Source of the DNA: Mytilus galloprovincialis | Taxonomy: Eukaryota > Mollusca > Bivalvia > Mytilida > Mytilidae | DNA: 64,000 bases | Direction of reading: 5' to 3' | Assembly (NCBI RefSeq): GCF_965363235.1 | Contig: NC_134849.1 | Location: forward strand, 65,987,122 to 66,051,121 | Shown here: one piece after another, positions 4,311 to 53,968 of the stretch | Numbering within the stretch: position 1 is the stretch's first letter | Layout of the letters: every line of letters starts with the position of its first letter | The notes under the pieces: model-generated | Databases searched by the model: none | Seen by the model: only the letters and a program-made list of their open reading frames with translations | What the model was told of the DNA's origin: nothing | Translations under genes and position numbers: made by a program

Positions 4311-4603
4311 TGGTTATTTTGATCTGTCTAACAACTACGTTCTTGTCGATGACAATTCTGAATGACGAATAGTGCTAAACTTAGCACGACAATGCATACA
4401 TTCTTGTTTGTATCGAATACGTATTTTAATGCGTACAAATTCAGTCATGTACGTAAAATATTGCATTGATATGTATAAAATTTCAATTAACCTTACGATA
4501 ATATTCTTTTGAATGTGTTTACCAAATAAGCGTGACGTGTCTTTAGTTTAAGGTCAATGTTCTAATTAAGTTCCTTCTTCCGGATTTCATATTAGCGAAT
4601 ATA
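4310..4603 (+). promoter_or_regulatory. Gene A 5' flank (inferred promoter region)
   Basis: The 294 bases before the start codon are nearly identical to those before gene B (53620-53901), including AATAAGCGTGACGTGTC, which holds a CRE-like TGACGT core. No convincing TATA box was found. Promoter function is inferred only from position and conservation between duplicates, which may be too young to show constraint. Confidence 0.3.
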
Positions 4604-4670
4604 ATGAAGAATGTTAGACTTTTTAATCTCGTCCTGACGACTTTATTTATATTGTGTGATGCAGTCGCAG
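4604..4670 (+). CDS. Gene A exon 1: signal peptide
   Basis: Encodes 22 residues: MKNVR, a hydrophobic core [10 protein letters not shown], then AVA, a standard -3/-1 cleavage motif. It ends in phase 1 at CAG|GTTAGT. The ATG is the first in frame, and the same start is kept in gene B. Confidence 0.85.
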
Positions 4671-7600
4671 GTTAGTCATTACTAACATAAAATAAATAAT
4701 GTTTTACAAGTATATACATTGACGTCTTTTGTAGACATATTGTCGAAATACTATTATATGTTTGAGAAGTAGTGAATGTTCGCTTTATTCCCTGAACTAC
4801 ATTTTGAAAGGCGATTTTTAAATCTATATACTGCGTACATCTATGGCATTTGATTCTGTGAATAATCTATGCCATAGATGCACACTAAAATAATTTCCAA
4901 AGTTTAATCTTATAATAAGACATTGAAACGAAAACTTACAGTAATTTGAACCTTATATTGAATTAAAAATTGGGATTAGAAGAAAATTATCACTCGGTTT
5001 ATCGGAAAATGCTTGTATATGCTATACTTGAATCAGTAAGGCTCCGTGGATAGAATAAACATGATACTGTATTTATGTTTTATGTCCATCGTTTTTGTTA
5101 CATGAATTGTAAACTTGCTGATTACTCAACACTGGGAGTCAGAATTGTATGTGCTTGCAGAAAAAGTACACAGAAAGGCACGTCTTTCTACCCGGAGACA
5201 GTTTTAATTTTGTTTGAAAATGTAAGATATTTTTACCATCTTTTGTTTAAGACACATTTATATAAGCAACAGGAACCGATGCATTCACGTTGGCAAAATA
5301 ATATACGTAGGTAAGGGTTTCCCCTGTCATCAACGTACACATATTAACACAAACATCTTAAAGAAAGTTTATCAGGAAATAATTAAGGATACTTATAAAA
5401 AAATCAACAATCAAATATAATTTGCATATTTTAATAAAAACCAGATTTTTAACTTCGTTAGCAAATAAGGAAGAATTGGTTGTTGTTATCTAGCAAGTGA
5501 TCTTTACCTGTAAAAATACATGATTTATGTTAATGATACACGCAATAAACATGAGAAAGAACATTGAGTGAAATTCAAATCCCTTGGGTTAGCTGTCTAA
5601 ACAATTATACAGGTTTACTTTAATCACAAAAAAAAGTAACTCAATATATGGTTCTTTATTATTATTTTGTTTTTGTTTTGTTACATTGATCAGTTTCTTC
5701 TCATTCGATTTATGAAATTCAAACATCGGTAAACTTCAGTCGTATTCATTTACGATTTACATGAATATAGTTCTTCGTATTTCTACAACTTTGGGGCCCT
5801 TTTAAAGCAGGAAATTTGACATTAATTCAAAATGTTTAACGTATACTGGTTTATATGTTCGGAAAATAGCTATCAAAAGTACCAGGATTATAATTTAGTA
5901 CGCCAGACGCGCCTTTGGTCTACAAAAGACTCATCAGTGACGCTCATATCAAAATATTTATACAGCCAAACAAGTACAAAGTTGAAGAGCATTGAGGATC
6001 CAAAATTCCAAAACGTTGTGCCAAATACGGGAAAAACAGTATTAATTAAAATAAAAGTACTTCAATGAAAATTCAAAACGGAGGTCCCTTATCAAATATC
6101 AAAAATCAAAGCTCAGACACATCAAACGAATTAAAAACAACTGTCATTTTCACTATCATATATCAAATATGTTATTTCAAAATTAAAAATGCATGACGTG
6201 CATATCGATATTAATGCTAATTTAGCCAAAGCTATGGAATAATCATTTTATTTCAGACAGTGATACTCGAGTGACATATGCGGTCAATGGTACTGACATT
6301 CTGAATTGTACGGCTGATAAACAGTCGAAGATATATATTGACTCAGTCGATTTTAACTCATCATTGTGCAACATTACTGATACAGCATTTATACGGCACT
6401 TCAGAAATATATGCAATGGTAAAACCGTGTGTGGATTTAGTACTATGAATGAAATCAGCGACCTTAACATTTCATGTTCTATAAATGGGACGGACAGTAA
6501 TCTACCTGACGTTTACTATCACTGTGTTCGTAAGTATAATTTTAAAGATTGTACTACGATAGTAGACCTAAGTTATTAAAGATAAACCATCTCACATATT
6601 TTGTCTGCTGAAAGGCAGAGTTAAATTTTGTTAACAATAATTCATGTACAGCAACTTAGTAAATTGCAATTATGTCTTATTAGATATTTGAACATTTTAA
6701 CGTATATCTAAAACAATGTGGTGGCTATTTGCATATTGTAAACTGCTTAAGCCTCATTTTTTTTCACAGACAAACATGTTTATTAAAAGTTAAGCTAACC
6801 TGCATCGGCAAGTGAAGCTTTTTATGTTTGTTCGACGACTGCTGATACTAGTATTTTTTATCTCAATATTTTGAAGAAAAGATAAAAACGATTGCAGACT
6901 GTAAAAAAAATCTTACAAATTCTTGTATACGCGATGCAACCAATACACATTGTCGCTTATGCATTTTCTAGTTTCCAATTGATTTAAATTCTGTTAAAAA
7001 TACTCTGAATATAGATTCGAATAATATATAAATATATACATTTCCCATTTTCTTTCTTAATTTTATGGTTTCAAAATATAAGTTCTCATGCATCGTAATG
7101 TTTTGAAAATCGATATATGATGAATAATGTATTCTGAATTTACTTTCGCTCTTCCTTTTTTTTGCCAGTGTGTGAGTGTATATTTTCTCGACATAAGTAA
7201 ATGCTGCATAAAATCTTTTTAATTTTCGTGTGCAATTGTTTTGTTTAGGTAATGGCATGTGGTCAAATTGGAGTGACTATTCCATTTGTTCTGTCACGTG
7301 TGGTGGAGGTATACAAACCAGGTCCAGAATGTGTTCCAATCCAGCTCCAAATGAAAATGGTCAGAACTGTTCTGGTAACAATGTAGACGAAAGAAACTGT
7401 AACACACAAAACTGCTCTAGTAAGTCTTGAAACGTTGTTACATATATGCTGCATGTACATTAAATGTTTGATGCAGTTTCGAACATGCATCATTTAATTC
7501 ACACCTTAACCAATTTTAGAAAAAAAAGAGTACTGTTTTGTAACCAATCAATGTTAAATCCTTTAGTTTTTTTCTCATCCTCGTTACGTTTACAGCATGC

Positions 7601-10600
7601 TTTCCAAATCCTTTTTTTTTTAACTTAATAGTTTTTCAAAAATATATCATCTTAATTATTCAACATCCATTACAACAGCTTCTGTCTAATGTTAGAGATG
7701 TTGCTGTTTTCATGAGACAGATAACTTCTAAAAAAAGTTAAGTTGATTTTAAATAACACTAAAAAAGTGATAATTGGGTCATATGTACGTGATGTATAAT
7801 TTCAGATCCTTTTACTAAGCATTACTTGGAGGAAGAAACAGCTTATCTAAAATGCTCAATAGAATTCAACGAAATAATAAAAATAGCAACTATCAAATAT
7901 GAAAAAGGAACCTGCAGTCACAATGATTTGTATGGTATCGGGAATCTATGTGATGGAAGGACAAAATGTGCATTCAACGTGACAAACAGTAATGTCGGTA
8001 GTTCGTGTGGTGCTAATGGAACGGCATCTCTTGGAATTACGTACAATTGCATACGTGAGTTATACCTTCATTTATATCTTTTAATAAGACAACCATGTAT
8101 TTTGATCCAAAATACATCATAGTATGTGTTTTATTTTGAAGATCAATAATAATCATAGATTGACCTTTAAATACCAGAAGATCTGAAGCAAACGTTAATA
8201 GGATTGCAGCTACAAAATACAAAACAATATAAATGAACATCTAGAAATCATGTTTAAAACAATAATACTATTTTTTTCAGTAGACTACTTGATATGAACA
8301 CATGATAGTACAATGGTCATTTATACAATTTCTCATAAAACGTGTGTAAATAAAACATGTAAAAAAAAAAGGATCGACAAAACGGCTGTTATAGAAAAAA
8401 ATATAACTTTGAGCGTTTAAGCCAGAGACAAGTATTTTAATGTGTTCACACGTTTGACAATTATCGTATGAAACATCTATGCAGGAGTGTATTCCTAGTT
8501 CACTTTTTTTTTAAACGGAGAAACGAATCCTTATTCTCCTTTTCTAAAATTTGAAAGTAACTGTTGCTACTGGACAGCTCCTCGAAACATAGGCTAATAA
8601 TCTAATGTGTCAGTGTTACGAAACTGCAGTGATACATGTATATAAGAAAACATGCTTGCATGTACACTGTATTTAGCTGTTATTTCTGTTTTCCGTTTTT
8701 GTTTGAGCGTTTTGAATAAAGATTAAACAACAATAGTTCTTCGAAAGTTACAATCTTTATCTAGCTTTTTTTCCAAATAAATTTATGAAACCATGTCGAC
8801 AAGAGTGTTATGACAAGACTGCGAAAAGTTATAACGGGTCTTTTTCCTTTCGGGGCAATTAGAATACGATTAGGCAATGAATCATAATGCAAATTAATGC
8901 ATTTCTTTGTCTAACCACAATACTTAATCCTTTTAGTTAAAACAATTGTGATACCCTTTATATCGATTATTCTTTACAAATTGATGTCCTTTAAAGACAA
9001 ATTACAAAATGCATGCATGTTATCAAATAAACAATCGGCCCTGTAAGCCAGTTTTCTCTGTTTGTTTTGCAAATCATTATATTTGAATATAAAGCATTGC
9101 GATAGAAATAATATTTTTTAAATTACGGTCGGACAACTTAAAATCAAAATAAATCATTACAAATCTCTTTTGTTTAGATTTTCTGTCCGTCCGTCCAGAC
9201 TTTTTTCTTCATGCTTGAAGATATTGATTTGATATTCGGTGTATTGTTTTATCATGACAAGTAACATGTCAAGTTCGATTTTCACGATTTTAGATTTTCT
9301 CAGTAAAAGTCCTTTCCCTAGAATTGATTTTTTGCTGAAATACTGTTTAATTGCTAGATTTTTGTTCAAAGGGAAATAACTCATTGTTTAACTTTCACTA
9401 GAACTAAATTTTGAATGAAATACTTATTAATTACTTGATTTCTGTTCAAAAAGGAAATAACTCATTTTTTAACAGATTTGTAAAATACATTATTTTAAGA
9501 TAAATGACTTTTTGGATTTTTTTCCTTTTCTTTGGCAACTTGTTTGAAGAGGTGGTAGGTTTGTTTGTTATTTTATATAGTTTAATTCATGACAAGTTAT
9601 TGATTAAGTTAGACTTTCGTTTCATTTCAATGATTTGTTTTAACGGTAGTTGACAATGTATTGCCATGCAATACTCACAGAATGCTTGTTCATAGTTTAT
9701 TTAATTCTACATATTGTTCTTAAGGAAACGGTGGATGGTCAGACTGGAAAAACACAACATATTGTCCCGTCAACTGTGGCGGTGCATTACAAAATGTAAC
9801 ACGTACTTGTACAAACCCGACCCCTAATGAGCTAGGAGCCTCGTGTTTTGGGACCAGTTTTAATGAGCAAATATGTAATGACAATGCTTGTCCTTGTAAG
9901 TACAGTTGTCAAATATTATGAGTGCAATTAGCGTCGCGCGAAATCTATTTTACATACTAAAATTTGAAATGAAGATATTTTAGTTAGTTTTAGTATTGTT
10001 TGTTTTGGATTTAACGACGTTATGTGAGAACGAGATTGCCCAGATATTTTTTGCATATCTATGGTGTGTGTCCACAACAACAATGTGGTTTCACGTTTTT
10101 AATAGTTGTAAAAGAGGGACGAAAGATACCAAAGGGACAGTCAAACTCATAAATCTAAAACAAACTGACAACTCCATGGCTAAAAATGAAAAAAGACAAA
10201 CAGAAAAACAATAGTACACACGACACAACATAGAAAACTAAAGAATAAACAACACGAACCCCACCAAAAACTAGGGGTGATCTCAGGTGCTCCGGAAGGG
10301 TAAGCAGATCCTGCTCCACATGTGGCACCCGTCGTGTTGCTTATGTGATTACAAATCCGGTAAATAGTCTAATTCGGTAGGTCATATTCATGAAAGGGAA
10401 GGGGATTGTAGTTACGACGTAAGGAACATATCCGATATCATTTGTGAAACGGTTATTCCATAACGGTCAACCAACTCGTGATGGCGTCCGTAAAATTTAC
10501 GAAGGGATGATTTCAACTTCACTATTTGTAACATCAGCATTTTTGTGAAGACCTACATGTATGTATGAAAATTGTAGTAAGTAGATCATGTTACTTTGCA

Positions 10601-13600
10601 TGATAATTCCTTCTCGTCAAAACTATGTGTGTCCTTTTTTCGAAAGCATTATACAAGTATTCATATATTTAACAAACCCCATCTAAAAGCAACACAACAC
10701 TTAAAGAAACAAAAATGCTTTTCAATTCTCAATTTTATGAGGTTAAAAATGTTCGAGAGGCAAATGGATCATCAAAACAAAACACACTAAGATTTACAAA
10801 TGACAAGTAAGATGTACACACTCATATTGTTGAACGCATTATTTAAAATGTTAATTTCATACTGGCACATTTGTATTCGATTGAATAGCTACCTAAGATT
10901 GTCATTAATATTTTATATGAAAACTTTGCAAACAAGTTAGTATGATTTTTTTGTGTTCATTTGATATCAATACATTTATTTATCTGTTCTTTAATGCAAT
11001 AAAATGTCATTTGCAAACAATAAAATATCTAAGTAAAACGATAGCAGGGGCCAGGGCAATAATGAAAAGAGTAAGCATGAATAAGTATTTAAACATCCAA
11101 ACATTATCATGATTATGATATTGAAATAACAAGTATGAACAAAGATATAACAAACATGCAAAAACTCTCTCACGGGCAAACACCCCATAATTGTAAAATA
11201 TAAGGACACACACCACGGGGACATGTTCTACTGCATCAATACAGAACGATCAACACATACTGCTGTTCCGTGAAAACGTTGCATAGTGTAGTCGTTATTT
11301 CATGTCAAAAATAATTTGTACCGTACGATTGTTCAATCTGACAATTTAATGACCCAGGACTAAACAGTTTCCTGTTCCTCATTAAAAACAAATATTCACC
11401 CAGATGTCTAATATAGGGGGAAGTTTGGATACCACTATGACGTTTAACACTGTCACATTTCATATGTACCTGTCCAAACTCAGGACAGGAATCCACCGTT
11501 TTTCGTTTGTTAATGTACATCATATTTGGTTTTGGTTTCATAGTATTGTAACTTGTCATGTGGCTGTACCACTGACCGAGTTTTGTGAAGGTTAGTCACC
11601 TCCGCCGATGTATAATCCCGCTACGTTCTATATGAGTTTGTCCCTAGTCATGTAGGGACCTGTAATTCAGTGGTTATCGTTAGTTGCTGTATATTCTATG
11701 TGTTCTTCTTTAATAGTTTATACATAGGTCTGAGAATTAATATTTCAGATAACTTCTTAAAGCATAGATGAGTATGGTCCGTCTCTAAAAATGGGCGTAT
11801 GTATTTTTTTCACTATTTCAAGCAAGAAGTTTTTATTGACTATTTTTGATTGCATGTATTGCTCAATTGCTTAAACAAAATTGCATCTAAATTGTATTAC
11901 CTTTGACATCAACCTATGTGCAGATAAGAATATGTTTTTAGTTACCTATACCCAAAAATGTCTTGTCTATTTCCTGTGTTGGTCTTTGTATTATGTATTC
12001 GGGTTTTGTTTTCTGTAATTAGTTAAGACTTCAGTTTTATCATCATGTATATCTTTGATATTCATTTGTAAAATTTACTGTTTGCAATAGCATAAATTAT
12101 TCTAAATAATAAGGATGTTCTTATCACAAGCAGAAAACCTTAGCCGTATTTGACACAACCTTTTTCAACTTTTGATCCTCAGTGCTGTACAACATTGTAC
12201 TTTTTTTCACTTTCGAACTTTTATATCTGGGCGTCACTGGAAAGTCTTGTGTGGACGAGGCGCGTTTTTGGCGTATTGAATTTTAAACCTGATGCCTTTT
12301 GTTATCTATTATTCATGTGTTTCTTTGCATAATACGTTGTCCTATTTATTTGTAGTGTAGTCCTATAATATTATGTTGTCATTTTAATGTTATATTTAAC
12401 ATTGCCATTAAAGTGCGAGGTTTGGCATGCCACAAAACCAGGTTCAACCCATCATTTTTTCCTTTAAAAATATCCTGTACCAAGTCAGGAATATGGCCAT
12501 TGTTATATTATAGTTAGTTTCTGTGTGTGTTACATTTAAACGTTGTGTTTCCGTTGTGTTGTTTGTTTTCTCTTAATTTTTAGTGTGAATTCATATTACT
12601 ATAAGACGTGTAAAATTATAGTCCTGGTACTTTTGATAACTATTTACGGTACTTATCTATCCCAAATTCATGTATTTGGTTTTGATGTTATATTTGTTAT
12701 TCTCATAGGATTTTATCTAATGCTTAGTCCGTTTCTGAGTGTGTTACATTTTAATGTTGTGTCGTTGTTCTCCTCTTATATTTAATGCGTTTCCCTCAGT
12801 TGTTTGTTACCCCGATTTTGTTTTTCTGTCCATGGATTTAGAAGTTTTGAACAGCGGTATACTACTGTTACCTTTGTTTACCATACGTTGTTCCTTGAAT
12901 ACAATGTTTACCTCGACATCCTAGCTTGCATGTAATGCATCATCATAGGGCAGACCTAGACTTAAATCAAAGAAGACAGACATATGCACCAGGACAAAAA
13001 AAACATTAGATACACAAACGGGCATAAAACACACTTTAAACAGCGGTGTGAATTTTGAAAACAAGAATATGATTAAAACAGAAGGTGCACTTACACAACC
13101 TAGGAGAGTTAGCATTTTCGGTTGACTGTGTGAAACAATGTATTACTCTATTTTTTATACATGGACATACTATAATATGTTTTTATAGTGATAGGAACCG
13201 TATGTATTGATAATGGAAATGTAGTGACATGCAATAATGGATATATACAAATGAGACGTGCATGGTGGAAAGCAAGTAACGGATGTGGTGAACCTGGCAG
13301 CACTTCAAATTACGATGTCGTCCGAGAAATGAAAGAGATTTGCAATGAAAGAAAGTCTTGTACATTTACAGCAAAGGATAGTACTTTTAAGCTGTCATGT
13401 AGACATCAATTTAAAACATGTTCCGAATTAGAATATCAATATATATGCAAACGTAAGTGTTATTTGATTATGAAATATAGTAGATAGCAGTCCATAATTG
13501 TTGTTGATGAAACATTTATGCATTAATAGATAAAAACAATAATTGATAAATTCACCATCGGACATGTACACGTCATATTTGTTGACGCCGATACCCATTT

Positions 13601-31600: not shown

Positions 31601-34600
31601 TGGACCAAGGATCTTAAATCAAAAGACCCTAGGTCTCTATCACTTATAGTTTACCAGTTAGAAATGCATATCACTGATATCATATATAAAAGGGGGGATA
31701 ACTCTCATATGGAGTCTCCGGATAGCTTCCGTTGAAATGAAACAGAACATCCTAAGGATATAACGAGCAATTTGGAAAAATAAATTTGTCGGTTTCTTAT
31801 ACGGTTGCGAAGTAGTAGTGGCCACAAGAAAAACAGTGTTTGGGAAGATAACTCTTACAAGGTAAAGGTTTTTGTTATGCGGTGTCAGTTTCAGAAGCAC
31901 ATTAACTGTTCGATATCATATACCAAATATCTAAGCGACATCTTGTGAAACAAAAAAAACAGCGAAGGAAAAAAAAGTTGGCGGAAGAAAAAAAAAAAAA
32001 AAAAAAAAAATAATAATAATAATTAAAAACCAATTGTTCAAAGAACAATTGAAGGTCTTTCAACCAATAAGGATCTATTTTGATATGAAAATATTAAGAT
32101 TCAGTTGAAAATGTCAGTTCCTATGGCTTTATGATGTATAAATATGAATTTCGACCAAAGGTCAAAATCTAGAACGTCCAATTAACCTATGACCTTGACC
32201 TCAATTTCAAGGTCATAAACATAGGATCCCAAATCAAAACACCCTAGGTCTGTATTATGTATGGTTCATGAGTAAAATCATTTTACGCATAATTCTAAAT
32301 ATAAAAGGGGCGAAAACTCCCATTTATTGTCTACACACCCTTGTAACCAAAATATATAAGTAATGACATGTCGCAACTAACAATTTAGTAAAAATAATTT
32401 GTCGAAATCTTATTAAGTAATTGAAAATAAGTGAAAATAAGCAAAAATCAAAATTTGGAATTTGACCTTGACCTTTGACCTTGACCTAATTTTCATTTTT
32501 TTGGACGAAGGATCTTAATTCAAAAGACCCTAGGTCTCTATCACTTATGGTTTACCATTTAGAAATGCATATCACTTAGCTTAAATGAAAAAGGGGAATA
32601 ACTCTCATATGGAGTCTCCGTAAAGCTTCGGTCCAAATGAATATCCTAATCCTTAAGATGTAACGAGCAATTTGGTAAAATAAATTTGTCGTAATCTTTT
32701 ACGGTTGCGAAGGAGTAGTGGCCACAAGAAAAACAGTGTTTGGGGAGATAACTCTTACAACGTAAAGTATTTTGTTACGCAGTTGTAAATTTTTAAAGCG
32801 TATAAACTATACAACATCATAATCCAAATATGTAAGCGACATCTTTTGAAACATCATTACTACGCAAGAAAAAAATTTAGGCGGAAGAAAAAAAAAAAAA
32901 TAATAATAATAATAATAATAATTAAAAACCAATTGTTCAAAGAACAATTGAAGGTCTTTCAACCAATAAGGATGTATTTTGATATGAAAATATTAAGAAT
33001 CAGTTGAAAATGTCAGTTCCTATGGCTTTATGATGTATAAAAATGAATTTCGACCAAAGGTCAAAATCTAGAACGTCCAATTTACCTATGACCTTGACCT
33101 CAATTTCAAGGTCATAAACATAGGATCCCAAATCAAAAGACCCTAGGTCTGTATTATGTATGGTTCATGAGTAATATCACTTTACGCATAATTCTAAATA
33201 TAAGAGGGGCGAAAACTCCCATTTATTGTCTACGCACCCTTGTAACCAAAATTTATAAGTAACGACATGTCGCAACTAACAATTTAGTAAAAATAATTTG
33301 TCGAAATCTTATTAAGTAATTGAAAATAAGTGAAAATAAGCAAAAATCAAAATTTAAAATTTGACTTTGACCTTTGACCTTGACCTAATTTTCATTTTTT
33401 TGGACCAAGGATCTAAAATCAAAAGACCCTAGGGCTCTATCACTTATGGTTTACCAGTTAGAGATGCATATCACTTATATCATATATAAAAGGGGGGATA
33501 ACTCTCATATGGAGTCTCCGGATAGCTTCGGTCAAAATGAAACAGATATAACGAGCAATTTGGAAAAATAAATTTGACGGTTTCTTATACGGTTGCGAAG
33601 CCTTAGTGGCCACAAGAAAAACAGTGTTTGGGGAGATAACTCTTACAAGGTAAAGGTTTTTGTTACGCGGTGTCATTTTCAGAAGCGCATTAACTGTTCG
33701 ATATCATATACCAAATATCTAAGCGACATCTTGTGAAACAAAAAAACAGCGAAGGAAAAAAAAGTTGGCGGAAGAAAAAAAAAAATATAATAATAATAAT
33801 AATTAAAAACCAATTGTTCAGAGAACAATTGAAGGTCTTTCCACTAGTAAAGATCTATTTTGATATTGAAATATGAAAAAATCAGTTTAAAATGTTAATT
33901 CCTATGGCTTTATGATGTATTTATATGAATTTAAAGCAAAGGTCAAAATCTAGAACGTCCTTTTAACCTATGACCTTGACCTCAATTTCAAGGTCACAAA
34001 CCAAGGACCTTAAATCATAAGACCCTAGGTCTTTAATATGTTTGGTTAATGAGTAATACCACTTTAAGCGTAATTCTAAATGTAAGATGGACAAAAACTC
34101 CCATTTATTGTATGCGCACCCTTTCAATCAAAATAACCAAGTAAGGACATGTCGCAACTAACAATTTAGGAAAAAATATTTGTCGATATGTCATACGGTA
34201 TTTGAAAATAAGTGAAAATAAGCCAAAATCAAATTTTAGAATATGACCTTGACCTTTGACCTTGACCTTATTTTCATATTTTTGGACCAAGGAACTTAAA
34301 TCCAAAGACCCTAGGCCTATATCACTGATGGTTTACCAGTTAGAAACGCATATCACTTATATCAAATGCATAAGGGGAAATAACTCTCATATGGAGTCTC
34401 CGGATAACTTCAGTCCAAATGTATATCCTAATCCTGAAGAAGTAACGAGCAATTTGGTAAAATAAATTTGTCGTAATCTTTTACGGTTGCGAAGGAGTAG
34501 TGGCCACAAGAAAAACAGTGTTTGGGGAGATAACTCTTACAGCGTAAAGTATTTTGTTACGCAGTTGTAAATTTTTAAAGCGTATAAACTATACGACATC

Positions 34601-37600
34601 ATATTCCAAATATCTAAGCGACATCTTTTGAAACATCAATACTACGCAAGAAAAAAAATTAGGCGGAAGAAAAAAAAAAATAATAATAATAATCAGAACA
34701 AATTCAATAGGTCTTTCCACGGAAAGGTGGAAAGACCTAATAATAATAATCAGAACGAATACAATAGGTCTTTCAACAGAAAGGTTGAAAGACCTAATAA
34801 TCAGAACAAATACAATAGGTCTTTCACCTGAAAGGTTGAAAGACCTAATAATAATAATAATAATAATCAGAACAAACCCTACAGGTCTTTCACCTGAAAG
34901 GTTGAAAGACCTAATAATCAGAAGAAATCCAATAGGTCTTTCCACGGAAAAGTGGAAAGACCTAATAATAATAATAATCAGAACAAACCCTATAGGTCTT
35001 TCACCTGAAAGGTTGAAAGACCTAATAATCAGAACGAATTCAATAGGTCTTTCAACAGAAAGACCTAATAATAATAATAATAATTAAAAACCAATTGTTC
35101 AGAGAACAATTGTAGGTCTTTCCACTAGTAAAGATCTATTTTGATATTGAAATATTAAAAATCAGTTTAAAATGTTAGTTCCTATGGCTTTATGATGTAT
35201 TTATATGAATTTAAAGCAAAGGTCAAAATCTAGAACGTCATATCAACCTATGACCTTGACCTCAATTTCAAGTTCACAAACCAAGGACCTTAAATCAAAA
35301 GACCCAAGGTCTTTAATATGTTTGGTTTATTAGTAATATCACTTTACGTGTAATTCTAAATGTAAGATGGGCAAAAACTCCCATTTATTGTCTGCGCACC
35401 CTTTCAATCAAAATATACAAGTAAGGACATGTCGCAACTAACAATTTATGAAAAATTATTTGTCGATATGTCATAAGGTATTTGAAAATAAATGAAAATA
35501 AGCCAAAATCAAAATTTAGAATATGACCTTGACCTTTGACCTTGACCTCATTTTTATTATTTTCGACCAAGGACCCCAAATCTAAAGACCCTATGTCTTT
35601 ATCACTTATGGTTTACCATTTAGAAATGCATATCACTTAATTAAATGGAAAAGGGGGAATAACTCTCATATGGAGTCTCCGTAAAGCTTCGGTCCAAATG
35701 AATATCCTAATCCTGAAGATGTAACGAGCAATTTGGTAAAATAAATTTGTCGTAATCTTTAACGTTTGCGAAGGAGTAGTGGCCACAAGAAAAACAGTGT
35801 TTGGGGAGATAACTCTTACAACGTAAAGTATTTTGTTACACAGTTGTAAAGTTTTAAAGCGTATAAACTATACGATACCATATTCCAAATATCTAAGCGA
35901 CATCTTTTGAAACATCAATAATACGCAAGAAAAAAAATTAGGCGGAAGAAAAAAAAAAAAAAAAATAATAATTAAAAACCAATTGTTCAGAGAACAATTG
36001 TAGGTCTTTCCACAAGTAAAGATCTATTTTGATATTGAAATATGAAAAAATCAGTTTCAAATGTTAGTTCCTATGGCTTTATGATGTATTTATATGAATT
36101 TAAAGCAAAGGTCAAAATCTAGAATGTTGTATAAACCTATGACCTTGACCTCAATTTCAAGGTCACAAACCAAGGACCTTAATTCAAAAGACCCTAGGTC
36201 TTTAATATGTTTGGTTAATGAGTAATACCACTTTACGTGTAATTCTAAATGTAAGATGGACAAAAACTCCCATTTCTTGTATGCGCACCCTTTCAACCAA
36301 AATATACAAGTAAGGACATGTCGCAACTAACAATTTTGGAAAAAATATTTGTCGATATGTCATACGGTATTTAAAAATAAGTGAAAATAAGCCAAAATCA
36401 AATTTTAGAATATGACCTTGACCTTTGACCTTGACCTGATTTTCATTTTTTTGGACTAAGGATCTCAAATCAAGAGACCCTAGGTCTCTATCACTTATGG
36501 TTTACCAGTTAGAAACGCATATCACCTATATCAAATACATAAGGGGGAATAACTCTCATATGGAGTCTCTGGATAGCTTCGGTCAAAATTAAAAATCCTA
36601 ATCCTGAAGATGTAACGAGCAATTTGGTAAAATAATTTTGTCGTAATCTTTTTTACGGTTGCGAAGGAGTAGTGGCCACAAAAAAAACAGTGTTTGGGGA
36701 GATAACTCTTACAACGTTAAGTATTTTGTTACGCCATTGTCAGTATTTAAAGCGTATAAACTATATGATATCATATTCCAAATATCTAAGCGACAACTTA
36801 TTAAACAACAATACTACGCAAGAACAAAAATTAGGCGGAAGAAAAAAAAAAATAATAATAATAATTAAAAACCAATTGTTCAGAGAACAATTGTAGGTCT
36901 TTCCACTAGAAAAGATCTTTTTTTTGAAATATTAAAAATCAGTTTAAAATGTTAGTTCCTATGGCTGTATGATGTATTTATATGAATTTAAAGCACAAGG
37001 ACCTTAAATCAAAAGACCCAAGGTCTTTAATATGTTTGGTTTATTAGTAATATCACTTTACGCGTAATTCTAAATGTAAGATGGGCAAAAACTCCTATTT
37101 ATTGTCTGCGCACCCTTTCAATCAAAATATACAAGTAAGGACATGTCGCAACTAACAATTTATGAAAAATTATTTGTCGATATGTCATACAGTCCTTGGA
37201 TGGTGTAAACTTCCCACTAACACCATACACCATTACACCATACCCCATACCCCATTACACCATACACCTTGTACCATTACACCATACACGTTACACCTTT
37301 GCACCATACACCTTACACTTTACAACATACACCATTCCCCATTCTATCTACACGATCCGAAATTACCCATAATGCAATTAAATTTTAAATATTAATATTT
37401 TTATTATGTTTATGCTTACAATCCGAAAAAATGAAATAAATTTTTTTTCGTTTGCAACCAGTGAAAGGTCGTACACTATCATTCACACCATTCCCGATCG
37501 CACGTTACACAATCACACCATTCCTCATACACCATTACACCATTCCCCTTACACCATACACCATAGCACCATACACCTTACACCATTGCACCATATGCCA

Positions 37601-40600
37601 TACACCATTACACCATACACGTTGTTTTGGGAAGTTTACACCATCCAAGGGCTGTAAGGTATTTGAAAATAAATGAAAATAAGCCAAAATCAAAATTTAG
37701 AATATGACCTTGACCTTTGACCTTGACCTCATTTTTATTATTTTCGACCAAGGACCCCAAATCTAAAGACCCTATGTCTTTATCACTTATGGTTTACCAT
37801 TTAGAAATGCATATCACTTAATTTAAGGGAAAAGGGGGAATAACTCTCATATGGAGTCTCCGTAAAGCTTCGGTCCAAATGAATATCCTAATCCTGAAGA
37901 TGTAACGAGCAATTTGGTAAAATAAATTTGTCGTAATCTTTAACGGTTGCGAAGGAGTAGTGGCCACAAGAAAAACAGTGTTTGGGGAGATAACTCTTAC
38001 AACGTAAAGTATTTTGTTACACAGTTGTAAATTTTAAAAGCGTATAAACTATACGATACCATATTCCAAATATCTAAGCGACATCTTTTGAAACATCAAT
38101 AATACGCAAGAAAAAAAATTAGGCGGAAGAAACAAAAAAAAAAAATAATAATAATAATAATAATCAGAACAAATTCAATAGGTCTTTCCACGGAAAGGTG
38201 GAAAGACCTAATAATAATCAGAACAAATTCAATAGGTCTTTCCACGGAAAGGTGGAAAGACCTAATAATAATCAGAACAAATTCAATAGGTCTTTCCACG
38301 GAAAGGTGGAAAGACCTAATAATAATAATAATAATAATAATCAGAACAAAACCTATAGGTCTTTCCACGGAAAAGTGGAAAGACCTAATAATAATAATAA
38401 TCAGAACAAATTCAATAGGTCTTTCCACGGAAAGGTGGAAAGACCTAATAATAATCAGAACGAATTCATTAGGTCTTTCAACAGAAAGGTTGAAAGACCT
38501 AAATACTCAGACTCAGTCAGGAATACGCCGGTGTTAACAAATAGTCCGATCCCATGTATTTTTTAGCGCGCTTTTTTTTTTTTTTGTTGCAGTTTAGTGT
38601 TACTATTTTCCGCAATTTTCTTCTTATAGTTGATGTACTTTCCTTAGTTTAAGTTTATTATACAGATTTGTTTTTGCTAAATAACCGATTTATGATTATT
38701 GAAAAGCGGTAAACTAATGTTGCTTTTTGAATTTAAAGGCAAGTTTAAAATTCCTCTACAGCTTTCGATCACTATTATTATTTGTTCATAACATGTTTAA
38801 CCTTATAGTGTACATGATACTACATGTATCAACATGTATGCATCTATTAAAGTGACTATTGCAATTTTTGAAACCATAAATCAAAATTATCGACTATTAA
38901 TGTACACCTAATTAGACTTGTTCATCTTTAAACGTATAACTTATTTCAATTTGACTTTTATATTGTAGGAAGTGTTCATGTTAAAAAGGCTCTTCCTCAT
39001 TTGGTTGGACATTCAAATGCAACTTTGAACTTTACTTGCATTGTTCAAGATTCGTGTTTCAATTTGGCCAATATTACTATCACCATTATATCCTTTAATG
39101 TTGTAAGTATCTCCAAAAACTTTAAATGTCAAAATTAAAACGCCAATGGAGGTTAAACATATTTGCAGTCAGCTTACCAGAGAATTTGGAAAACCTTATT
39201 TTATTTATAATATGTACTTTTGACAACAGTTAAATTTAGAAATGGTGTCTTTGATGTGTTAATGTTACATGATGGTGGCATATATAACTTATTCTGCTAG
39301 TAAGAACTTATTTATGATATTGAAATTTTTGCAGCCACCTGCTGTAACAGATTTACCAGACATATTGATTCTAGACCCACAACAACTTTCAGACAATTCC
39401 AGTTTTCACATCTTTCGTGTTGAAGATCCCTCGAATGATAATGTGTCATGTGGTCTGAGTAAAATATCTCCTTCGACAGATAGATTAACGTTAGAGATGG
39501 ACGGCAATGGTAAATGGTATAAACTATTTTAAGACATTCAACTAAAAACAAAATCCAAATCATCCTCCAGTAATACAGATTTCGATACTGAGGGTGGTAA
39601 AGATTAGTATTAAACAATATTGAGCCGAATATCTCATCTTAAATGTCTAGGGTAATTACATTTTTGTCACCTGCACTTCTGCCGTTCGAACTTTGAGGTT
39701 GCACTTTGTAAATACAGCTGTTTCTCAAACCACGCCTCTTTTGGGGAGATTTAGAATATTGGTAGAAAATTAATTTTGTTTACATACTGGTTCCCAGTTA
39801 TGCTCCCTGGTTTTTCATCTCATAGAGCCATAACTTGGGAATGTTACCAGTAAATATACATGTGCATATTGTTTATATTGAAATATGTGGTAACCCTTCA
39901 TTCGAGGTAGGGGTAGTTAAGAAAACTAGTGATAGTTTAAACTCTGAAAAGTTCGGGGCATATAAACGTTGAAAATATGCCGCACATCCCTATATTTTGA
40001 CCTTTGAAAATAATTGTAGTGCATACGAGCTTTCAATTCTAGGATAAGTTTTTTTTCAAAACTTCATAGTAAAGTGGTACAGTTTTAGCCGTAAAAGGAG
40101 TCCCTATGGAAAATTGCATTGTCAATATTTACAGACATGCAACCTTGACTGTCATCAATTTTGTCTTTAAGGATTTATAAATGTGCAGTAATAATTAAAA
40201 ACAATCCACGATCCTTTATCCATGTTCAGAGAGTAGTGTTAGAAATCCGTTTAAACACTTTCAAAGGATCCATATTTCTCCTGTTGCAAGGATATGTATC
40301 TTTTGCTTCCCCACATGATCTGGTGTTCTTCCTCGTATACCAAGTATACCCAATTATGTCGTGGTCACTCACTTTATTTAAACTACTGAGAAAGATGTTT
40401 TTCTTATCATAAACATAAAATGGCACATGTGCCACCTTATGTATACAACCAATCATTGAAGTAATTGCAATTAAGACTCTTCTTTCTTCTTTTGAGTTTT
40501 GATCTGTATGCTGTTTTCAAACTAGCATTTGAATTCATGAGATATAAATTGACATTTTTAAATTGCTGTGTTCTTTTATCTTTCCTATATCGTAATTTGT

Positions 40601-42337
40601 TTGAATATATATATGTAGGACTCTAAAGTGCGATGGGGACGCTAAATTACGATGGTCACGCTAAAGTGCGATGGTCTACGCTAAAGTGCGTGGTTCCATA
40701 CGCTAAAGTGCGATGGTCCGGGAAAATGTAGACGTAAAAACGTAGTTCGATAATGACGTTAACAGTTGTCTATACAAACTAATGATGAACATACCAGAAA
40801 ATATATTAGGAATATTTGTTTAACAATTTTTACACCATATGTCCATGACTTACGAGTAATCGATTGCATTTAACCGTTCTTTGTCGGCTGAATCACAATG
40901 TTTATTTTTTTCGAGTGCTGAAAAAAGGACTTGTATCCTACAGTCGACCATTTTACTATATAAATACAAAACAGTATAGGCATACTTATCCTGCTTCTAT
41001 TTGAAGCGAACGGACACATTCGAATCATTGTTTATGCGGCAGTTTACTTTGTGATCCCTGTTAAAATGCCGTCGATTTTAATGAAAAGTAACGTTGGTAA
41101 AATAGAGATACATGTTTTCATGCGTTATCTATAAATTGTCTGCTAAAACATAAGTTCGTACTGTATATTGTAAGAAACAATACGGAAAAGGAGAAAGCTC
41201 GGCGAACATTGCATTTCTCTCGCATTTAGATTTAAGCTTATGCAAATAAATGCTGCATATTCCGACAATGAACGAATAAGGGATTTTTAACTTTCAATGA
41301 CAAATGTAAGGGAGGTTGTATTATTAGTGTGAACGGCAATCTACAGCAATTATCCAAATATTCAATACGCTCCGAATTGTTTAAAATTCATTTTACATGA
41401 AATATAATATTAGCAAAACATAAATTACCTTTATAGCAATTATTACTTGGTCGGACTTGTTAATTTAGAAATAAATTACTTCCGCCTACCTTTAAATTGT
41501 AAAGCCTATCACATATGTTATACCTTAACATAATCATGATAATAGCTTTTGCAAAAAGACTTTTTAAACCTCGATGTTTTAGTACTTCGAATCTTACCCT
41601 TTGGACCATCACACTTTAGCCTGATACACCATCGTACTTTCGCGAACAAACAACCCACGCACTTTAGAGTGCCGGAGACCCCATCGTACCTTACCGTAGA
41701 CAATCGCACTTTAGCGTGACCATCGCACTTTAGAGTACCATCGCACTTTAGAGTCTTACAAATATATATCATGTATATAGTGTCTTTGATTAGGTTACCA
41801 TTATTATTTTGATAATAGACTATGTTCTTGTAAAGTGCTGTGTACGTTGCTACTTTCTTCAATTTAACTACATGTATTAAATACATCTATTTTTATTCCA
41901 CAGAGGCTTTTTTACGTGTATTAAACCATAGTACAAGTAATACAACACTGGAATATGAACTAGAAATATATTGTGACGATGGAACAGATGTAACTATTAT
42001 CAAATTAATCGTCCATTTTAGTTCAAAGAAAAACAGTGAAAGTGCAGAATTCAAAATTATTTACGTTGCTGGTTCCATAGGCGGGCTGCTACTTATTGTT
42101 ATTATTATAGTTGTTTTGTATTATTATTTTTCGAAACGACAAAAGACTCTAATTACGTCAAAAAGTTCAAACGACAGTAAAAGCAATAGTTTGTATACAT
42201 CTATAATATATGACAATGCTACTGTTAATCCATATGATAACATTGAACAAATTGGAAACAAACAAATACCAACAGATCATTTTGAAATGTCTAAACCAGA
42301 TCCCAACATTTATGAAAATACCAAAATATTCATCTGA
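4604..42337 (+). CDS. Gene A: SUEL-lectin/TSP1/cadherin-like transmembrane receptor
   Basis: Fifteen exons join into 2769 nt with no frame break: 4604-4670, 6257-6529, 7249-7419, 7806-8054, 9725-9895, 13189-13452, 14232-14405, 15393-15467, 16553-16708, 17546-17627, 19457-19629, 21532-21702, 38969-39102, 39335-39509, 41904-42337. The 922-residue product has a signal peptide (1-22), SUEL-like domains (about 23-113, 171-253, 311-398), TSP1 domains (114-170, 254-310, 399-456), a linker (457-481), an unnamed extracellular module (482-618), cadherin-like repeats (619-818), a transmembrane helix (about 831-854) and a tyrosine-rich tail. All junctions have AG acceptors and GT donors; nearly all are phase 1. 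The lectin and TSP1 calls rest on cysteine and tryptophan patterns. Function as a cell-surface receptor is inference. Exon 12 (19967-20137), with an in-frame stop, is left out of this model. No family name is known to me. Confidence 0.8.
4671..6256 (+). other. Gene A intron 1
   Basis: Closely matched by gene B intron 1. It contains a dispersed repeat (about 5868-6150) and no supported gene. Open frames at 5075-5314 and 5832-6068 are chance or repeat frames; they are not preserved as equal-length frames in the other copy. Confidence 0.7.
5868..6035 (+). repeat. Dispersed repeat (forward copy)
   Basis: Contains ACGCCAGACGCGCC, GACTCATCAGTGACGC and GAGCATTGAGGATCC. The same repeat occurs at 55185-55345 in gene B and, reversed and diverged, at 12130-12290 in intron 5. 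It is a familiar mussel dispersed repeat from memory. Confidence 0.75.
6257..6529 (+). CDS. Gene A exon 2: SUEL-type lectin-like domain 1
   Basis: Encodes residues 23-113. Six cysteines (ILNC, SLC, NIC, TVC, ISC, YHC) and the block [11 protein letters not shown] fit the C-G-x3-C core of SUEL (rhamnose/galactose-binding) lectin domains; the first cysteine pair of the classical fold is missing. Several N-glycosylation sequons are present (NCT, NSS, NIT, NIS, NGT). Flanked by phase 1 introns with TTTCAG and GTAAGT. Sugar binding is not proven; the family YGR signature is not visible. Confidence 0.75.
6530..7248 (+). other. Gene A intron 2
   Basis: AT-rich, aligned to gene B intron 2 throughout. 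No other feature seen. Confidence 0.7.
7249..7419 (+). CDS. Gene A exon 3: TSP1 domain 1
   Basis: Encodes residues 114-170. It shows WSNW (a C-mannosylation-type WxxW), CSVTCGGG (the CxxTCG O-fucose-type motif), RSRMC and six cysteines ending NCNTQNC: the full thrombospondin type 1 pattern. Phase 1-1 exon, donor GTAAGT. Confidence 0.9.
7420..7805 (+). other. Gene A intron 3
   Basis: AT-rich with T and A runs. No other feature seen. Confidence 0.65.
7806..8054 (+). CDS. Gene A exon 4: SUEL-type lectin-like domain 2
   Basis: Encodes residues 171-253. Six cysteines in the same order as domain 1; [16 protein letters not shown] matches the C-x-G-x3-C-x-V core and ITYNC the closing strand of SUEL lectins. 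Phase 1-1; acceptor TTTCAG, donor GTGAGT. Confidence 0.8.
8055..9724 (+). other. Gene A intron 4
   Basis: About 1.7 kb against 0.6 kb in gene B; the two diverge from about 8480. It holds an imperfect direct repeat (about 9325-9390 and 9405-9475) with GGAAATAACTCAT at each end. No gene seen. Confidence 0.6.
9725..9895 (+). CDS. Gene A exon 5: TSP1 domain 2
   Basis: Encodes residues 254-310: [16 protein letters not shown] and the closing ICNDNAC. Position 5 of the CxxTCG fucose motif is changed (N instead of S/T), so that modification is unlikely here. Gene B has one extra codon. Confidence 0.87.
10095..10530 (-). mobile_element. 3' end of a reverse-transcriptase retroelement, reversed
   Basis: On the minus strand the end near 10465-10530 reads [19 protein letters not shown], the conserved region after the reverse-transcriptase core in the same family as the relic at 2946-3405. 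It is followed by a non-coding 3' tail with CTCAGGTGCTCCGGAAGG. It is 5'-truncated and absent from the same intron of gene B. A diverged copy of the tail sits in gene B intron 4. Confidence 0.75.
12100..12885 (-). repeat. Composite of dispersed repeats in intron 5
   Basis: 12130-12290 is the reverse complement of the repeat at 5868-6035. 12420-12500 is the reverse of the repeat at 4130-4310. 12540-12885 matches, in plus orientation, the retroelement 3' region at 3480-3750. Gene B intron 5 lacks all three. Confidence 0.7.
13189..13452 (+). CDS. Gene A exon 6: SUEL-type lectin domain 3
   Basis: Encodes residues 311-398 and is the most classical of the three lectin domains. It has eight cysteines, [16 protein letters not shown] in place of the family's A-x-YGR region, [11 protein letters not shown] for the C-x-G-x3-C core, and LEYQYIC as the last strand. 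Phase 1-1. It differs from its gene B counterpart at 15 of 88 residues. Confidence 0.88.
13453..14231 (+). other. Gene A intron 6
   Basis: Conserved in gene B. It contains an old, diverged direct repeat: TGTTGATCGAGGCTA near 13600 and TGTTGATTGAGGCTA near 13930, each with a matching CCTTGGCATG/CCTTATGGTA-type block nearby. No gene seen. Confidence 0.55.
14232..14405 (+). CDS. Gene A exon 7: TSP1 domain 3
   Basis: Encodes residues 399-456 with the canonical [17 protein letters not shown]: WxxWxxW for C-mannosylation and CSKSCG for O-fucosylation. Donor is the weak GTTTGT, identical in gene B. Amino-acid sequence is identical in both genes (two silent changes). Confidence 0.92.
14406..15392 (+). 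other. Gene A intron 7
   Basis: Nearly identical to gene B at its 5' part. It carries a repeat insertion (about 15045-15300) missing from gene B. Confidence 0.65.
15045..15300 (+). mobile_element. SINE-like dispersed repeat
   Basis: Contains GATGGAGAGTTGTCTCATTG and CACCACATCTTCCTATATCT, a sequence I recognise as very common in mussel DNA. A relative lies at 48515-48760. Gene B intron 7 reads straight through without it. SINE identity is from memory; no A/B box was verified. Confidence 0.6.
15393..15467 (+). CDS. Gene A exon 8: short linker
   Basis: A 25-codon phase 1-1 exon (residues 457-481, containing [18 protein letters not shown]). Its boundaries and length are the same in gene B, with acceptor CAG and donor GTAACA. 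It joins the last TSP1 domain to the next module. No domain recognised. Confidence 0.65.
15468..16552 (+). other. Gene A intron 8
   Basis: Twice the length of gene B intron 8 (485 bp). The difference is mostly the inverted-repeat element at 15860-16437. Confidence 0.75.
15860..16437. mobile_element. MITE-like element with TTAA-type target duplication
   Basis: Ends are AGTCATAAGAAAC and its exact inverse GTTTCTTATGACT (13-bp terminal inverted repeat). Flanks are TTAA on the left and TTGA on the right. Gene B keeps the empty site (TATTTAAATGTATTTTT near 61571), which contains a single TTAA. The 578-bp interior has no open frame of note. TTAA duplication suggests piggyBac-type mobilisation, but the termini are not the usual CCC type. 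Confidence 0.8.
16553..16708 (+). CDS. Gene A exon 9: unnamed extracellular module, first part
   Basis: Encodes residues 482-533: [26 protein letters not shown], then [13 protein letters not shown]. The pattern G-x-I-x4-F-x-P-x3-G-x-V/F-x3-VWR recurs, from memory, in uncharacterised secreted proteins of molluscs and cnidarians, but I cannot name the domain. Phase 1-1; donor GTATGG. Confidence 0.7.
16709..17545 (+). other. Gene A intron 9
   Basis: Matches gene B intron 9. No feature beyond a short dispersed-repeat stretch (17130-17165). Confidence 0.6.
17546..17627 (+). CDS. Gene A exon 10: unnamed module, middle part
   Basis: Encodes 27 residues and two bases of the next codon (IGKYVQHN, then [13 protein letters not shown]). 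It ends in phase 2 at TG|GTCAGT, the only phase 2 junction in the gene, so exons 10 and 11 together form one phase 1-1 unit. Strand-like [12 protein letters not shown] continues across the junction. Confidence 0.75.
17628..19456 (+). other. Gene A intron 10
   Basis: Homologous to gene B only at its first 320 bases; from about 17950 the two copies carry unrelated sequence. It includes a degenerate reverse-transcriptase-tail fragment (18085-18160) and a repeat-like block around 19040-19300 that begins with GGAGAAGGTCCGGTAAGGGC. No gene seen. Confidence 0.55.
19457..19629 (+). CDS. Gene A exon 11: unnamed module, last part
   Basis: Encodes residues 562-618: [21 protein letters not shown] and [17 protein letters not shown]-x-G-x3-IGYYDC continues the motif of exon 10. 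Acceptor ATACAG, donor GTAAGA, phase 2-1. Gene B has the same exon with intact frame. Confidence 0.78.
19746..19764 (+). other. G-run in intron 11
   Basis: GGGGGCGGGGGGGGGGGAGGG lies in an otherwise AT-rich intron and is absent from gene B intron 11. It has enough G tracts to form a quadruplex in principle. Confidence 0.7.
19967..20137 (+). pseudogene. Gene A exon 12: cadherin-like half repeat with stop and GC donor
   Basis: Encodes 57 codons aligned one for one with exon 13 (DPD-GD, KLDY-N-YF, FDT). Codon 31 is TAA where exon 13 has TTA, and the donor is GCAAGT where exon 13 has GTAAGT. The acceptor TTTTAG is good. Gene B keeps an open reading in the visible first 20 codons. Skipping this exon keeps frame. 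Including it would end the protein at residue 648, before the membrane segment. It could be a dead exon, a switch to a soluble form, or an assembly or allele error. Confidence 0.75.
20138..21531 (+). other. Gene A intron 12
   Basis: AT-rich. It contains one possible small exon (20832-20909) and otherwise nothing I can support. Confidence 0.5.
20832..20909 (+). CDS. Possible small exon 12b
   Basis: After a strong acceptor (TATTGTTTCAG) an open 26-codon phase 1-1 piece reads [20 protein letters not shown] and ends at a GTAAAT donor. Placed after exon 12 it would supply the D-T-x-G-L-x3-L step of a cadherin repeat. No second copy is in view to test it. Weak. Confidence 0.25.
21532..21702 (+). 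CDS. Gene A exon 13: cadherin-like repeat, N-terminal half
   Basis: Encodes residues 619-675. [44 protein letters not shown] follow the cadherin plan V-x-I-x-DxDxG-x-N/D-x-I-x-Y/F-x-L and F-x-L/I-D. The DPD pair is present but the linker DxNDNxPxF is not, so calcium binding is doubtful. Phase 1-1, donor GTAAGT. Confidence 0.7.
22572..22596 (-). promoter_or_regulatory. Example of a nuclear-receptor-type half-site cluster
   Basis: Four TGACCT half-sites (AGGTCA on the minus strand) are arranged as direct repeats with spacing 0, 1 and 0; the central TGACCTTTGACCT is a perfect DR1. The same cluster recurs in nearly every array unit. Binding is inferred from motif only. Confidence 0.5.
23086..23828 (+). 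mobile_element. Non-autonomous Helitron nested in array unit 2
   Basis: 5' end TCTATAATAC, 3' end CTAG. A perfect 8-bp hairpin ACCCGTGA-TG-TCACGGGT (23802-23819) sits 5 bases before CTAG. The insertion falls between A (23085) and T (23829), and sister units show the empty site GATATGAAAAT. No target duplication. These are the defining Helitron features. The 743-bp interior has two related blocks (about 23140-23230 and 23560-23650) and no Rep/helicase. Confidence 0.9.
25545..25574 (+). repeat. Single 30-bp hairpin at unit junction
   Basis: AGGTCTTTCCAC and GTGGAAAGACCT (with one mismatch-free loop GGAAAA or similar) form a stem at the end of a unit, next to CAGAACAAAACCTAT and TAA repeats. 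A like hairpin is at 27358-27387. Confidence 0.85.
29186..29326 (+). repeat. Hairpin minisatellite, 3 copies
   Basis: Three copies of AGGTCTTTCCAC-loop-GTGGAAAGACCT, spaced 54-57 bases by TAATAATCAGAACAAA-type spacers. Confidence 0.88.
34709..35067 (+). repeat. Hairpin minisatellite, 7 copies
   Basis: Seven hairpins separated by (TAA)n-CAGAACAAA spacers. Some stems are AGGTCTTTCAAC/GTTGAAAGACCT or AGGTCTTTCACC variants in which both arms changed together or one arm wobbled. The last copy is shortened. Confidence 0.88.
37190..37654. mobile_element. MITE with minisatellite core, TA target duplication
   Basis: Terminal inverted repeats of about 27 bp start CAGTCCTTGGATGGTGTAAA and end with the inverse (one C/T difference). 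TA lies on both sides; sister array units show the undisturbed site GATATGTCATAAGGTATTTG with one TA. The interior has two blocks of CACCATACACCATTA-type repeats. 465 bp, no open frame of note. Confidence 0.92.
38179..38503 (+). repeat. Hairpin minisatellite, 6 copies, array end
   Basis: Six hairpins of the AGGTCTTTCCAC family close the array; the last has CAAC/GTTG arms. Unique sequence follows immediately. Confidence 0.88.
38620..38738 (+). repeat. Degenerate retroelement 3' end
   Basis: TTTCCTTAGTTTAAGTTTAT to AAAAGCGGTAAACTAATGTT is a diverged match to the 3' end at 3655-3755 and 12785-12885. Confidence 0.6.
38969..39102 (+). CDS. Gene A exon 14: cadherin-like repeat, C-terminal half
   Basis: Encodes [29 protein letters not shown] and [11 protein letters not shown], completing the repeat begun in exon 13 with two cysteines that could pair. 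It ends in phase 0 at GTT|GTAAGT, and its acceptor is TTGTAG. Exon 15 alone fits this phase. Confidence 0.68.
39335..39509 (+). CDS. Gene A exon 15: second cadherin-like repeat, first part
   Basis: Starts [15 protein letters not shown], like the linker and first strand of a cadherin repeat, then [19 protein letters not shown] and [11 protein letters not shown]. Phase 0-1; acceptor TTGCAG, donor GTAAAT. The short intron 14 (232 bp) has no features. Confidence 0.68.
39510..41903 (+). other. Gene A intron 15
   Basis: AT-rich; contains the inverted-repeat element at 40619-41755. No gene seen in the rest. Confidence 0.7.
40619..41755. mobile_element. 1.1 kb foldback element with repeated TIR motifs
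   Basis: Left end GACTCTAAAGTGCGATGG; right end is its inverse, CCATCGCACTTTAGAGTC. CTAAAGTGCGATGG is repeated about five times inside the left 110 bases, and its inverse about six times in the right 160 bases. Similarity may extend outwards (TGTARGACTC), so exact ends and target duplication are uncertain. No transposase seen. Confidence 0.82.
41904..42337 (+). CDS. Gene A exon 16: end of cadherin-like repeat, membrane helix, tail
   Basis: Encodes residues 779-922: [20 protein letters not shown] closes the repeat; then a transmembrane helix with [16 protein letters not shown] (about 831-854), a basic stop-transfer KRQK, and a 68-residue tail. The tail tyrosines are Y876 (SLYTSI), Y881 (IYDNAT), Y889 (PYDNI) and Y915 (IYENT). 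Acceptor TTCCACAG, stop TGA. Confidence 0.85.
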
Positions 42338-42462
42338 AATGTCATAAAAAAGTAACGCCAAACGTTGTAGGCTGTTGATACATTTCATTGGCTATAATGT
42401 ATTCTTACTATTTTAATGTTTACGTCGTATGCGCGTCTGGCTGTAAATGTTTAATGACAATT

Positions 42463-42468
42463 AATAAA
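42463..42468 (+). terminator. Gene A poly(A) signal
   Basis: AATAAA lies 126 bases after the stop codon, at a suitable distance for the 3' end. Confidence 0.6.
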
Positions 42469-49721: not shown

Positions 49722-49874
49722 CAAAAAAAATATTTGGAAGACTCCGTATGCATTCTATTAGTATTTTATTGTCATCATATAACAAAATAATGATCGCATG
49801 TTGCTAGTATAACTAGACTTGCAATTGCTTTACATAAATCCATCTCTAAGTTAGTGTTTCAGTGGTTTTGTATT

Positions 49875-53901: not shown

Positions 53902-53968
53902 ATGAAGAATGTTAAATTTTTTAATCTCGTCCTGACGACCTTATTTATATTGTGTGCTGCAGTCGCAG
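53902..53968 (+). CDS. Gene B exon 1: signal peptide
   Basis: 22 residues; differs from gene A at R5K, L6F and D19A. Same AVA cleavage motif and phase 1 donor GTTAGT. Confidence 0.85.

Follow-up and report, generated by a model that had tools for sequence, protein, structure and literature searches.

A putative hybrid gene in a mussel gene array is predicted to encode a single-pass membrane protein with SUEL-fold, TSP1 and cadherin-like modules

Introduction

Do mussels build new receptors by swapping halves between neighboring genes? A concrete case for asking is gene D, located at 4604..42337 on the forward strand of a 64,000-nucleotide stretch of Mytilus galloprovincialis DNA (the window; C12:65987122-66051121, where C12 is contig NC_134849.1). 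An earlier note on this DNA described a gene of 15 exons and 922 residues, coding for a receptor with lectin, TSP1 and cadherin-like modules and a signaling tail, and knew of no described protein with that combination. Bivalves carry large, variable recognition families and, to our knowledge, no antibody-like system. In the family to which gene D belongs, SUEL-fold, TSP1 and cadherin-type modules come together in a single predicted membrane protein, and at least one of the clustered copies appears to be recombinant. A further component is an extracellular module without a name, to which exons elsewhere in the genome are similar.

Results

Gene D was rebuilt from splice signals and reading frames. 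The model has 15 exons, all on the forward strand, and one open frame of 922 residues plus stop, the same exon count and length as first reported. All 14 introns start with GT and end with AG, and the donor of the exon at 14232..14405 is weak (gtttgt). Exon 1 (4604..4670; 86% identical to gene E, donor gttagt) supplies the ATG and the hydrophobic start of a signal peptide. Three SUEL-fold modules in exons 2 (6257..6529), 4 (7806..8054) and 6 (13189..13452) then alternate with three TSP1 repeats in exons 3 (7249..7419), 5 (9725..9895) and 7 (14232..14405). The unnamed module is encoded by exons 8 (V, 15393..15467), 9 (W, 16553..16708, with a CCG...FIVWR core), 10 (X, 17546..17627, RIAV...DIVGW) and 11 (U, 19457..19629, placed by exon mapping across the array). 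Cadherin-like repeat 1 is formed by exons 12 (cadA, 21532..21702) and 13 (cadB, 38969..39102), and repeat 2 by exon 14 (cadC, 39335..39509) and the start of exon 15 (41904..42337), which also holds the membrane helix, a 69-residue tail and the stop. This order of modules agrees with the one proposed previously and holds with Pfam and profiles. The probable product of gene D is a single-pass protein of the cell surface in which the combination of modules is unusual.

To place gene D among its relatives we searched the genome (1.38 Gb, 331 contigs) and mapped exons over 196 kb around the window. The genome also has 17 matches to the myticin family, each above the curated cut-off, as fits a Mytilus-type mussel, myticins not being known from other animals. 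The last exon of gene D has five copies genome-wide, all on C12 and on the same strand, spanning about 131 kb. They belong to an array with genes A, B and C upstream, then D, then E. The four tandem paralogues have the shared exons in the same order as gene D, 12 each in A, B and C and 14 in E, all with AG acceptors and stop-free frames. Exons V, W and X, the small exons after the last TSP1 repeat, were located by comparing the array copies, and V and W have counterparts in all four paralogues. With the signal exons of the four paralogues left out, the five spliced copies are open to the terminal stop. These acceptors and open frames in the paralogues put the predicted exon model of gene D far beyond chance. 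The exon search imposed the phases of gene D, so the agreement in phase is built in and counts for less than do the open frames and the similarity of the proteins. Some paralogue donors are weak, such as that of exon V in A and C, and in the same two genes exon X has a predicted GC donor. Genes A, B and C code for two SUEL/TSP1 pairs and D and E for three, SUEL-fold module 1 being found within the array only in D and E. A relaxed search of the DNA preceding A, B and C detected no such first pair at E<1 but did return a possible signal exon for gene C (E 0.003).

Comparison with its neighbors indicates that gene D is a hybrid whose front half comes from one of them and whose back half comes from the other. 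Positions 945-20163 match gene E, downstream, in blocks, and positions 21064-42786 match gene C, upstream. The switch in closest relative lies between 20163 and 21064, and we mark 20164..21063 as the junction. From exon V to exon U, gene D shares 84-99% identity with E and 60-65% with C. From cadA to the tail, identity is 95-99% with C and 55-64% with E. SUEL-fold modules 2 and 3 and TSP1 repeat 3 also lean to E. In the flanks, the DNA before D matches the DNA before E, and both 42442-42786 (after D) and 49061-50305 (before E) match the DNA after C, as expected for a tandem duplication with break points inside C and E. Gene D would accordingly have arisen by recombination of two neighbors, an E-type gene contributing the 5′ part and a C-type gene the 3′ part. 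The event was probably an unequal crossing-over or a tandem duplication across both neighbors, though its exact form we can only infer.

Just before the junction lies a spare cadherin-type exon (19967..20137, forward strand), a leftover cadA of the E type. It keeps its acceptor, has a GC donor (gcaagt) and an in-frame TAA, and leaves the phase unchanged whether it is skipped or included. This exon was absent from the earlier account of the locus.

The intron after 21702 is 17 kb long, which had raised the worry that the exons on its two sides might not belong to a single gene. It holds a 16.4-kb insertion (22128..38500), and gene C is continuous at the corresponding empty site. The insertion consists of a 0.9-kb unit repeated in tandem, and this unit has at least 161 matches on many contigs. 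Given the empty site in gene C and the repeat insert, the intron is long by insertion and offers no evidence for two genes, so that the worry falls away. Identity between contigs reaches 98%, suggesting a recent spread of the repeat.

Gene D is likely under constraint. The ratio of non-synonymous to synonymous substitution rates (dN/dS) is 0.29 between D and E over the 5′ part and 0.43 between D and C over the 3′ part. When each exon was aligned with its closer parent, a single gap of 3 bases was found in 14 exon comparisons. Aligned non-coding DNA has 11.6 frame-breaking indels per kb between D and E and 7.3 between D and C, and a genome-level alignment of D and C has 0 indels at exon positions. 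Nearly gap-free exons beside indel-rich non-coding DNA, together with dN/dS below 1, favor constraint on the predicted product. The D-C value for the last exon, 3.47, is based on 13 versus 1 changes, and we claim no positive selection from it. Expression of gene D is presumed.

The modules that the earlier note had called lectins were compared with known SUEL domains. The Pfam SUEL_Lectin family scores 15.8 bits on the whole gene D protein and 22.0 bits (E 2.1e-4) on module 2, against a cut-off of 31.4. A profile of the family was built from 13 modules, 12 from the array and one from a second cluster on C12. Against the PDB this profile matched the L-rhamnose-binding lectin 5h4s (E 4.1e-15), CSL3 (8.3e-12) and latrophilin-1 (0.002). 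All 12 PDB sequences listed are rhamnose-binding lectins (RBLs) or latrophilins. Taken singly, 11 of the 13 modules matched PF02140 at E<=1, the best at 1.3e-5. The modules of gene D are, by these profile matches, SUEL homologues. A whole-genome SUEL search, in which only the best candidates were scored, listed 100 matches, none of them in the three clusters of the family described below. The case shows that curated cut-offs can hide such genes.

Homology does not seem to carry the sugar site with it. Carbohydrate-binding RBL domains are marked by YGR, DPC and KYL motifs (PMC10817417). Checked on the alignment, these motifs are kept in none of the 13 family modules. The stretch after the tyrosine is shortened, and five modules have eight cysteines and eight have six. 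As controls we used eight ordinary SUEL domains from the top-scoring loci of the same genome, a favorable choice (two of 10 rows were duplicates and were dropped). YGR, DPC and eight cysteines are present in all eight controls and KYL in seven. A glutamate occurs in six family modules, each of them a module 2, and a lysine in three (module 3 of C, D and E), with no module having both. The lysine is found in 8/8 controls, the glutamate in only 5/8. In latrophilin-1, changes at the same glutamate and lysine strongly cut or abolish rhamnose binding, and receptor SUEL domains are often without these two residues (PMC2430599). Because 0/13 family modules keep YGR, DPC and KYL while the controls keep YGR and DPC in 8/8, binding of rhamnose or galactose by the family modules is unlikely. 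The lectin label therefore appears right for ancestry and doubtful for function.

The earlier note had also proposed searches with TSP1 and cadherin profiles. Pfam TSP_1 is found in three stretches of the gene D protein, well over its cut-off (E 1.9e-23, 82.8 bits, cut-off 21.6). Among the Pfam families listed at E<=1, none places its best stretch in residues 457-778, and none is a G-protein-coupled receptor family. Cadherin was reached with family profiles. With distant family members included, the profile of repeat 1 matches CELSR1 (E 1.2e-5), and 21 of the 22 chains listed are cadherin-type. The corresponding profile of repeat 2 has protocadherin-15 as the top four of nine rows, at best E 0.0054. 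Cadherin homology of both repeats, as first read by eye, is thus supported by profiles, the matches being weak. An hhalign comparison of repeat 1 with repeat 2 was not significant. Cadherin calcium motifs are DxD, LDRE and DxNDN. By eye, DxD is present in 7/7 rows of the repeat 1 alignment, and LDRE and DxNDN were not seen there.

The unnamed module, V-W-X-U, covers residues 457-618 (about 160 residues). It has no match in the PDB, and against Pfam one of five members gave a weak, unrelated match (E 0.22), nothing credible. W-like exons occur at five further places in the genome (E 3.4e-4 to 4.1e-3), and an X-like stretch is close to the W-like exon at one of the four places examined. This distribution gives the unit the look of a mobile extracellular module for which the libraries used do not yet have a name. 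The W-like exons outside the family clusters have a CCG...WEFY/WKFY/WEFS...VWR pattern.

Hydropathy shows one membrane helix at about residues 830-848 besides the signal peptide, as the earlier note had it. The 69-residue tail has four tyrosines, in SLYTSI, IIYDNA, NPYDNI and NIYENT, which may be SH2 or endocytic motifs. Read by eye, a tyrosine followed by D or N at +2 and L, M or I at +3 (YDNI and its counterparts) is present in 5/5 paralogue tails.

We also examined how far the family extends. The diagnostic exon cadB has 19 matches in the genome in three clusters, five in this array, 10 at C12:47.58-47.78 Mb and four at C2:56.92-57.01 Mb, suggesting a family of about 19 genes. The ten genes at C12:47.58-47.80 Mb form two similar sets about 110 kb apart and may represent a segmental duplication or uncollapsed haplotypes. 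One gene of this second cluster was read in part and follows the exon order of gene D through SUEL, TSP1, W, X, U and the cadherin exons, with weak matches for X and U (E 0.002 and 0.02). In this partial reading V, SUEL module 3 and a full tail were not found or resolved.

Discussion

Gene D resembles several known systems in part. Like gene D, rhamnospondin of Hydractinia combines SUEL/RBL with TSP1 modules in an extracellular protein that has diversified through gene duplication. It is secreted, with a serine-rich start, eight TSP1 repeats and one C-terminal RBL domain, whereas gene D has three alternating pairs and a membrane helix; neither cadherin repeats nor a membrane helix are mentioned in the part of the source available (PMC3269628). 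EVA-1/EVA1C (C21orf63) is, like the predicted product of gene D, a single-pass receptor with more than one SUEL domain and partly lost sugar residues, and the available part of the source mentions no TSP1, unnamed module or cadherin repeats, all of which are in gene D (PMC2430599). Latrophilin (ADGRL) is also a receptor with an extracellular SUEL domain and is reached by the family profile, but it has seven transmembrane regions (PMC3269628) and gene D a single helix besides the signal peptide. The cadherin superfamily, represented by CELSR1 and protocadherin-15, is matched by two gene D repeats. Gene D differs from it in having only these two, adjacent to the membrane, with DxD in repeat 1 and without a visible LDRE or DxNDN. 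At the level of titles and abstract openings, with most subscription journals outside the scope, no description of the module combination of gene D was found among the matches listed. To that extent the claim of an undescribed combination stands; the gene is no single oddity, being one of about 19 related genes and apparently recombinant.

The product of gene D is most likely a cell-surface recognition or adhesion receptor, and our confidence in this, somewhat better than even, comes mostly from the anatomy. Its SUEL/TSP1 arm would bind another cell, or matter from outside, by way of a protein or an unusual glycan there, the cadherin-like repeats next to the membrane would act as a stalk, and the tail tyrosines would serve phosphotyrosine adaptors or endocytosis. 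The terms receptor and signaling tail of the earlier note, like the ligand, are at present matters of inference. A number of observations weigh against this picture of an intact hybrid receptor gene. Gene D is known here from DNA alone. TSP1 repeat 2 has the same identity, 0.862, to C and to E, and synonymous divergence (dS) between D and E forms a patchwork, from 0 to 0.47 by exon. Because of this variation later gene conversion is likely, and the 5′ part of D is probably no clean recent copy of E, with gene conversion or an older event mixed in. The genome-level alignment of D and E has four indels at exon positions, three of them frame-breaking. For cadherin repeat 1, the profile has a single PDB chain, the first, below E 0.01; an earlier profile from five close copies was marginal (best E 0.33), and single sequences of the repeat have no match to any cadherin family of Pfam. 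A fold prediction for the SUEL modules from six window rows was uninterpretable, with a predicted local distance difference test score (pLDDT) of 39.6 and a predicted template modeling score (pTM) of 0.23.

What the receptor recognizes could be read differently. TSP1 and cadherin repeats are typical protein-protein modules, as would suit an adhesion or guidance receptor or coreceptor of the EVA-1/latrophilin kind, with protein ligands and a role in development or tissue organization. In the EVA-1 coreceptor, too, the SUEL domains are without residues that bind sugar, and ligands other than carbohydrates have been contemplated for the SUEL domains of receptors (PMC2430599). We consider this adhesion or guidance reading a serious but rather unlikely alternative, as a family of about 19 clustered copies that shows signs of recombination points more to recognition of variable targets than to a fixed guidance role. 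Immune receptors commonly stand in tandem, diversified clusters, and gene D might instead encode a classical pattern-recognition receptor whose SUEL modules bind microbial rhamnose or galactose and whose tail signals to immune cells. The bivalve RBL GYL-R bound lipopolysaccharide and E. coli (PMC10817417), rhamnospondins, with their mix of SUEL and TSP1, are predicted immune molecules (PMC3269628), and 3/8 of our control domains also lack the glutamate. This is distinctly less probable given that YGR, DPC and KYL are kept in 0/13 modules and that the glutamate (6/13) and lysine (3/13) never occur together, at positions where changes left latrophilin-1 with much weaker rhamnose binding or none (PMC2430599).

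The hybrid structure itself invites two further explanations. Gene D may be a non-functional or altered by-product of recombination, in which the spare exon is spliced in and translation ends early, giving a soluble ectodomain or no protein. The spare exon has kept its acceptor and a GC donor (gcaagt) like the predicted exon X donors of A and C, it holds an in-frame TAA and is phase-neutral whether skipped or included, and 16.4 kb of repeat lie in the intron after 21702. We regard this as unlikely, since 15/15 exons are open despite many indels in the aligned non-coding DNA and both parts of the gene have dN/dS below 1. High heterozygosity is a feature of mussel genomes, and the two similar sets about 110 kb apart at C12:47.58-47.80 could be uncollapsed haplotypes, so that gene D might be an assembly artefact of haplotypes joined in tandem. 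Such joining is expected to give the order C-E-C-E and not an E/C chimera that breaks inside an intron, and D is set apart from both neighbors by its own insertion and dead exon, making an artefact very unlikely. Returning to gene D as a genuine hybrid receptor gene, we raise tentatively, and with more doubt than conviction, a wider proposal. It would belong to an undescribed mussel receptor family whose clusters recombine within introns, re-pairing N-terminal recognition halves with C-terminal stalk and signaling halves, gene D being one such product and the dead spare exon its scar.

Other features of the window and array

A second gene of the family, absent from the earlier note, is present in the window. 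The 5′ part of gene E (53902..64000, forward strand) continues past the window end. Exon mapping placed its exons at 53902-53968, 55566-55838, 56585-56755, 57203-57451, 58066-58239, 59161-59424, 60181-60354, 61119-61193, 61679-61834, 62684-62765, 63481-63653 and from 63937 on. Between D and E lies a second tandem repeat (43543-47752) with units of about 200-380 bases. Five other open reading frames in the window gave Pfam matches that were weak and below cut-offs, or none. A 128-codon open frame upstream of gene E (49335-49721), in DNA also present after gene C, has a weak Pfam match below the cut-off. At C12:65907467-65908714 we found a relic of a family gene, with stops in its cadC and a tail-exon match split in two that has repeat-like residues at its end.
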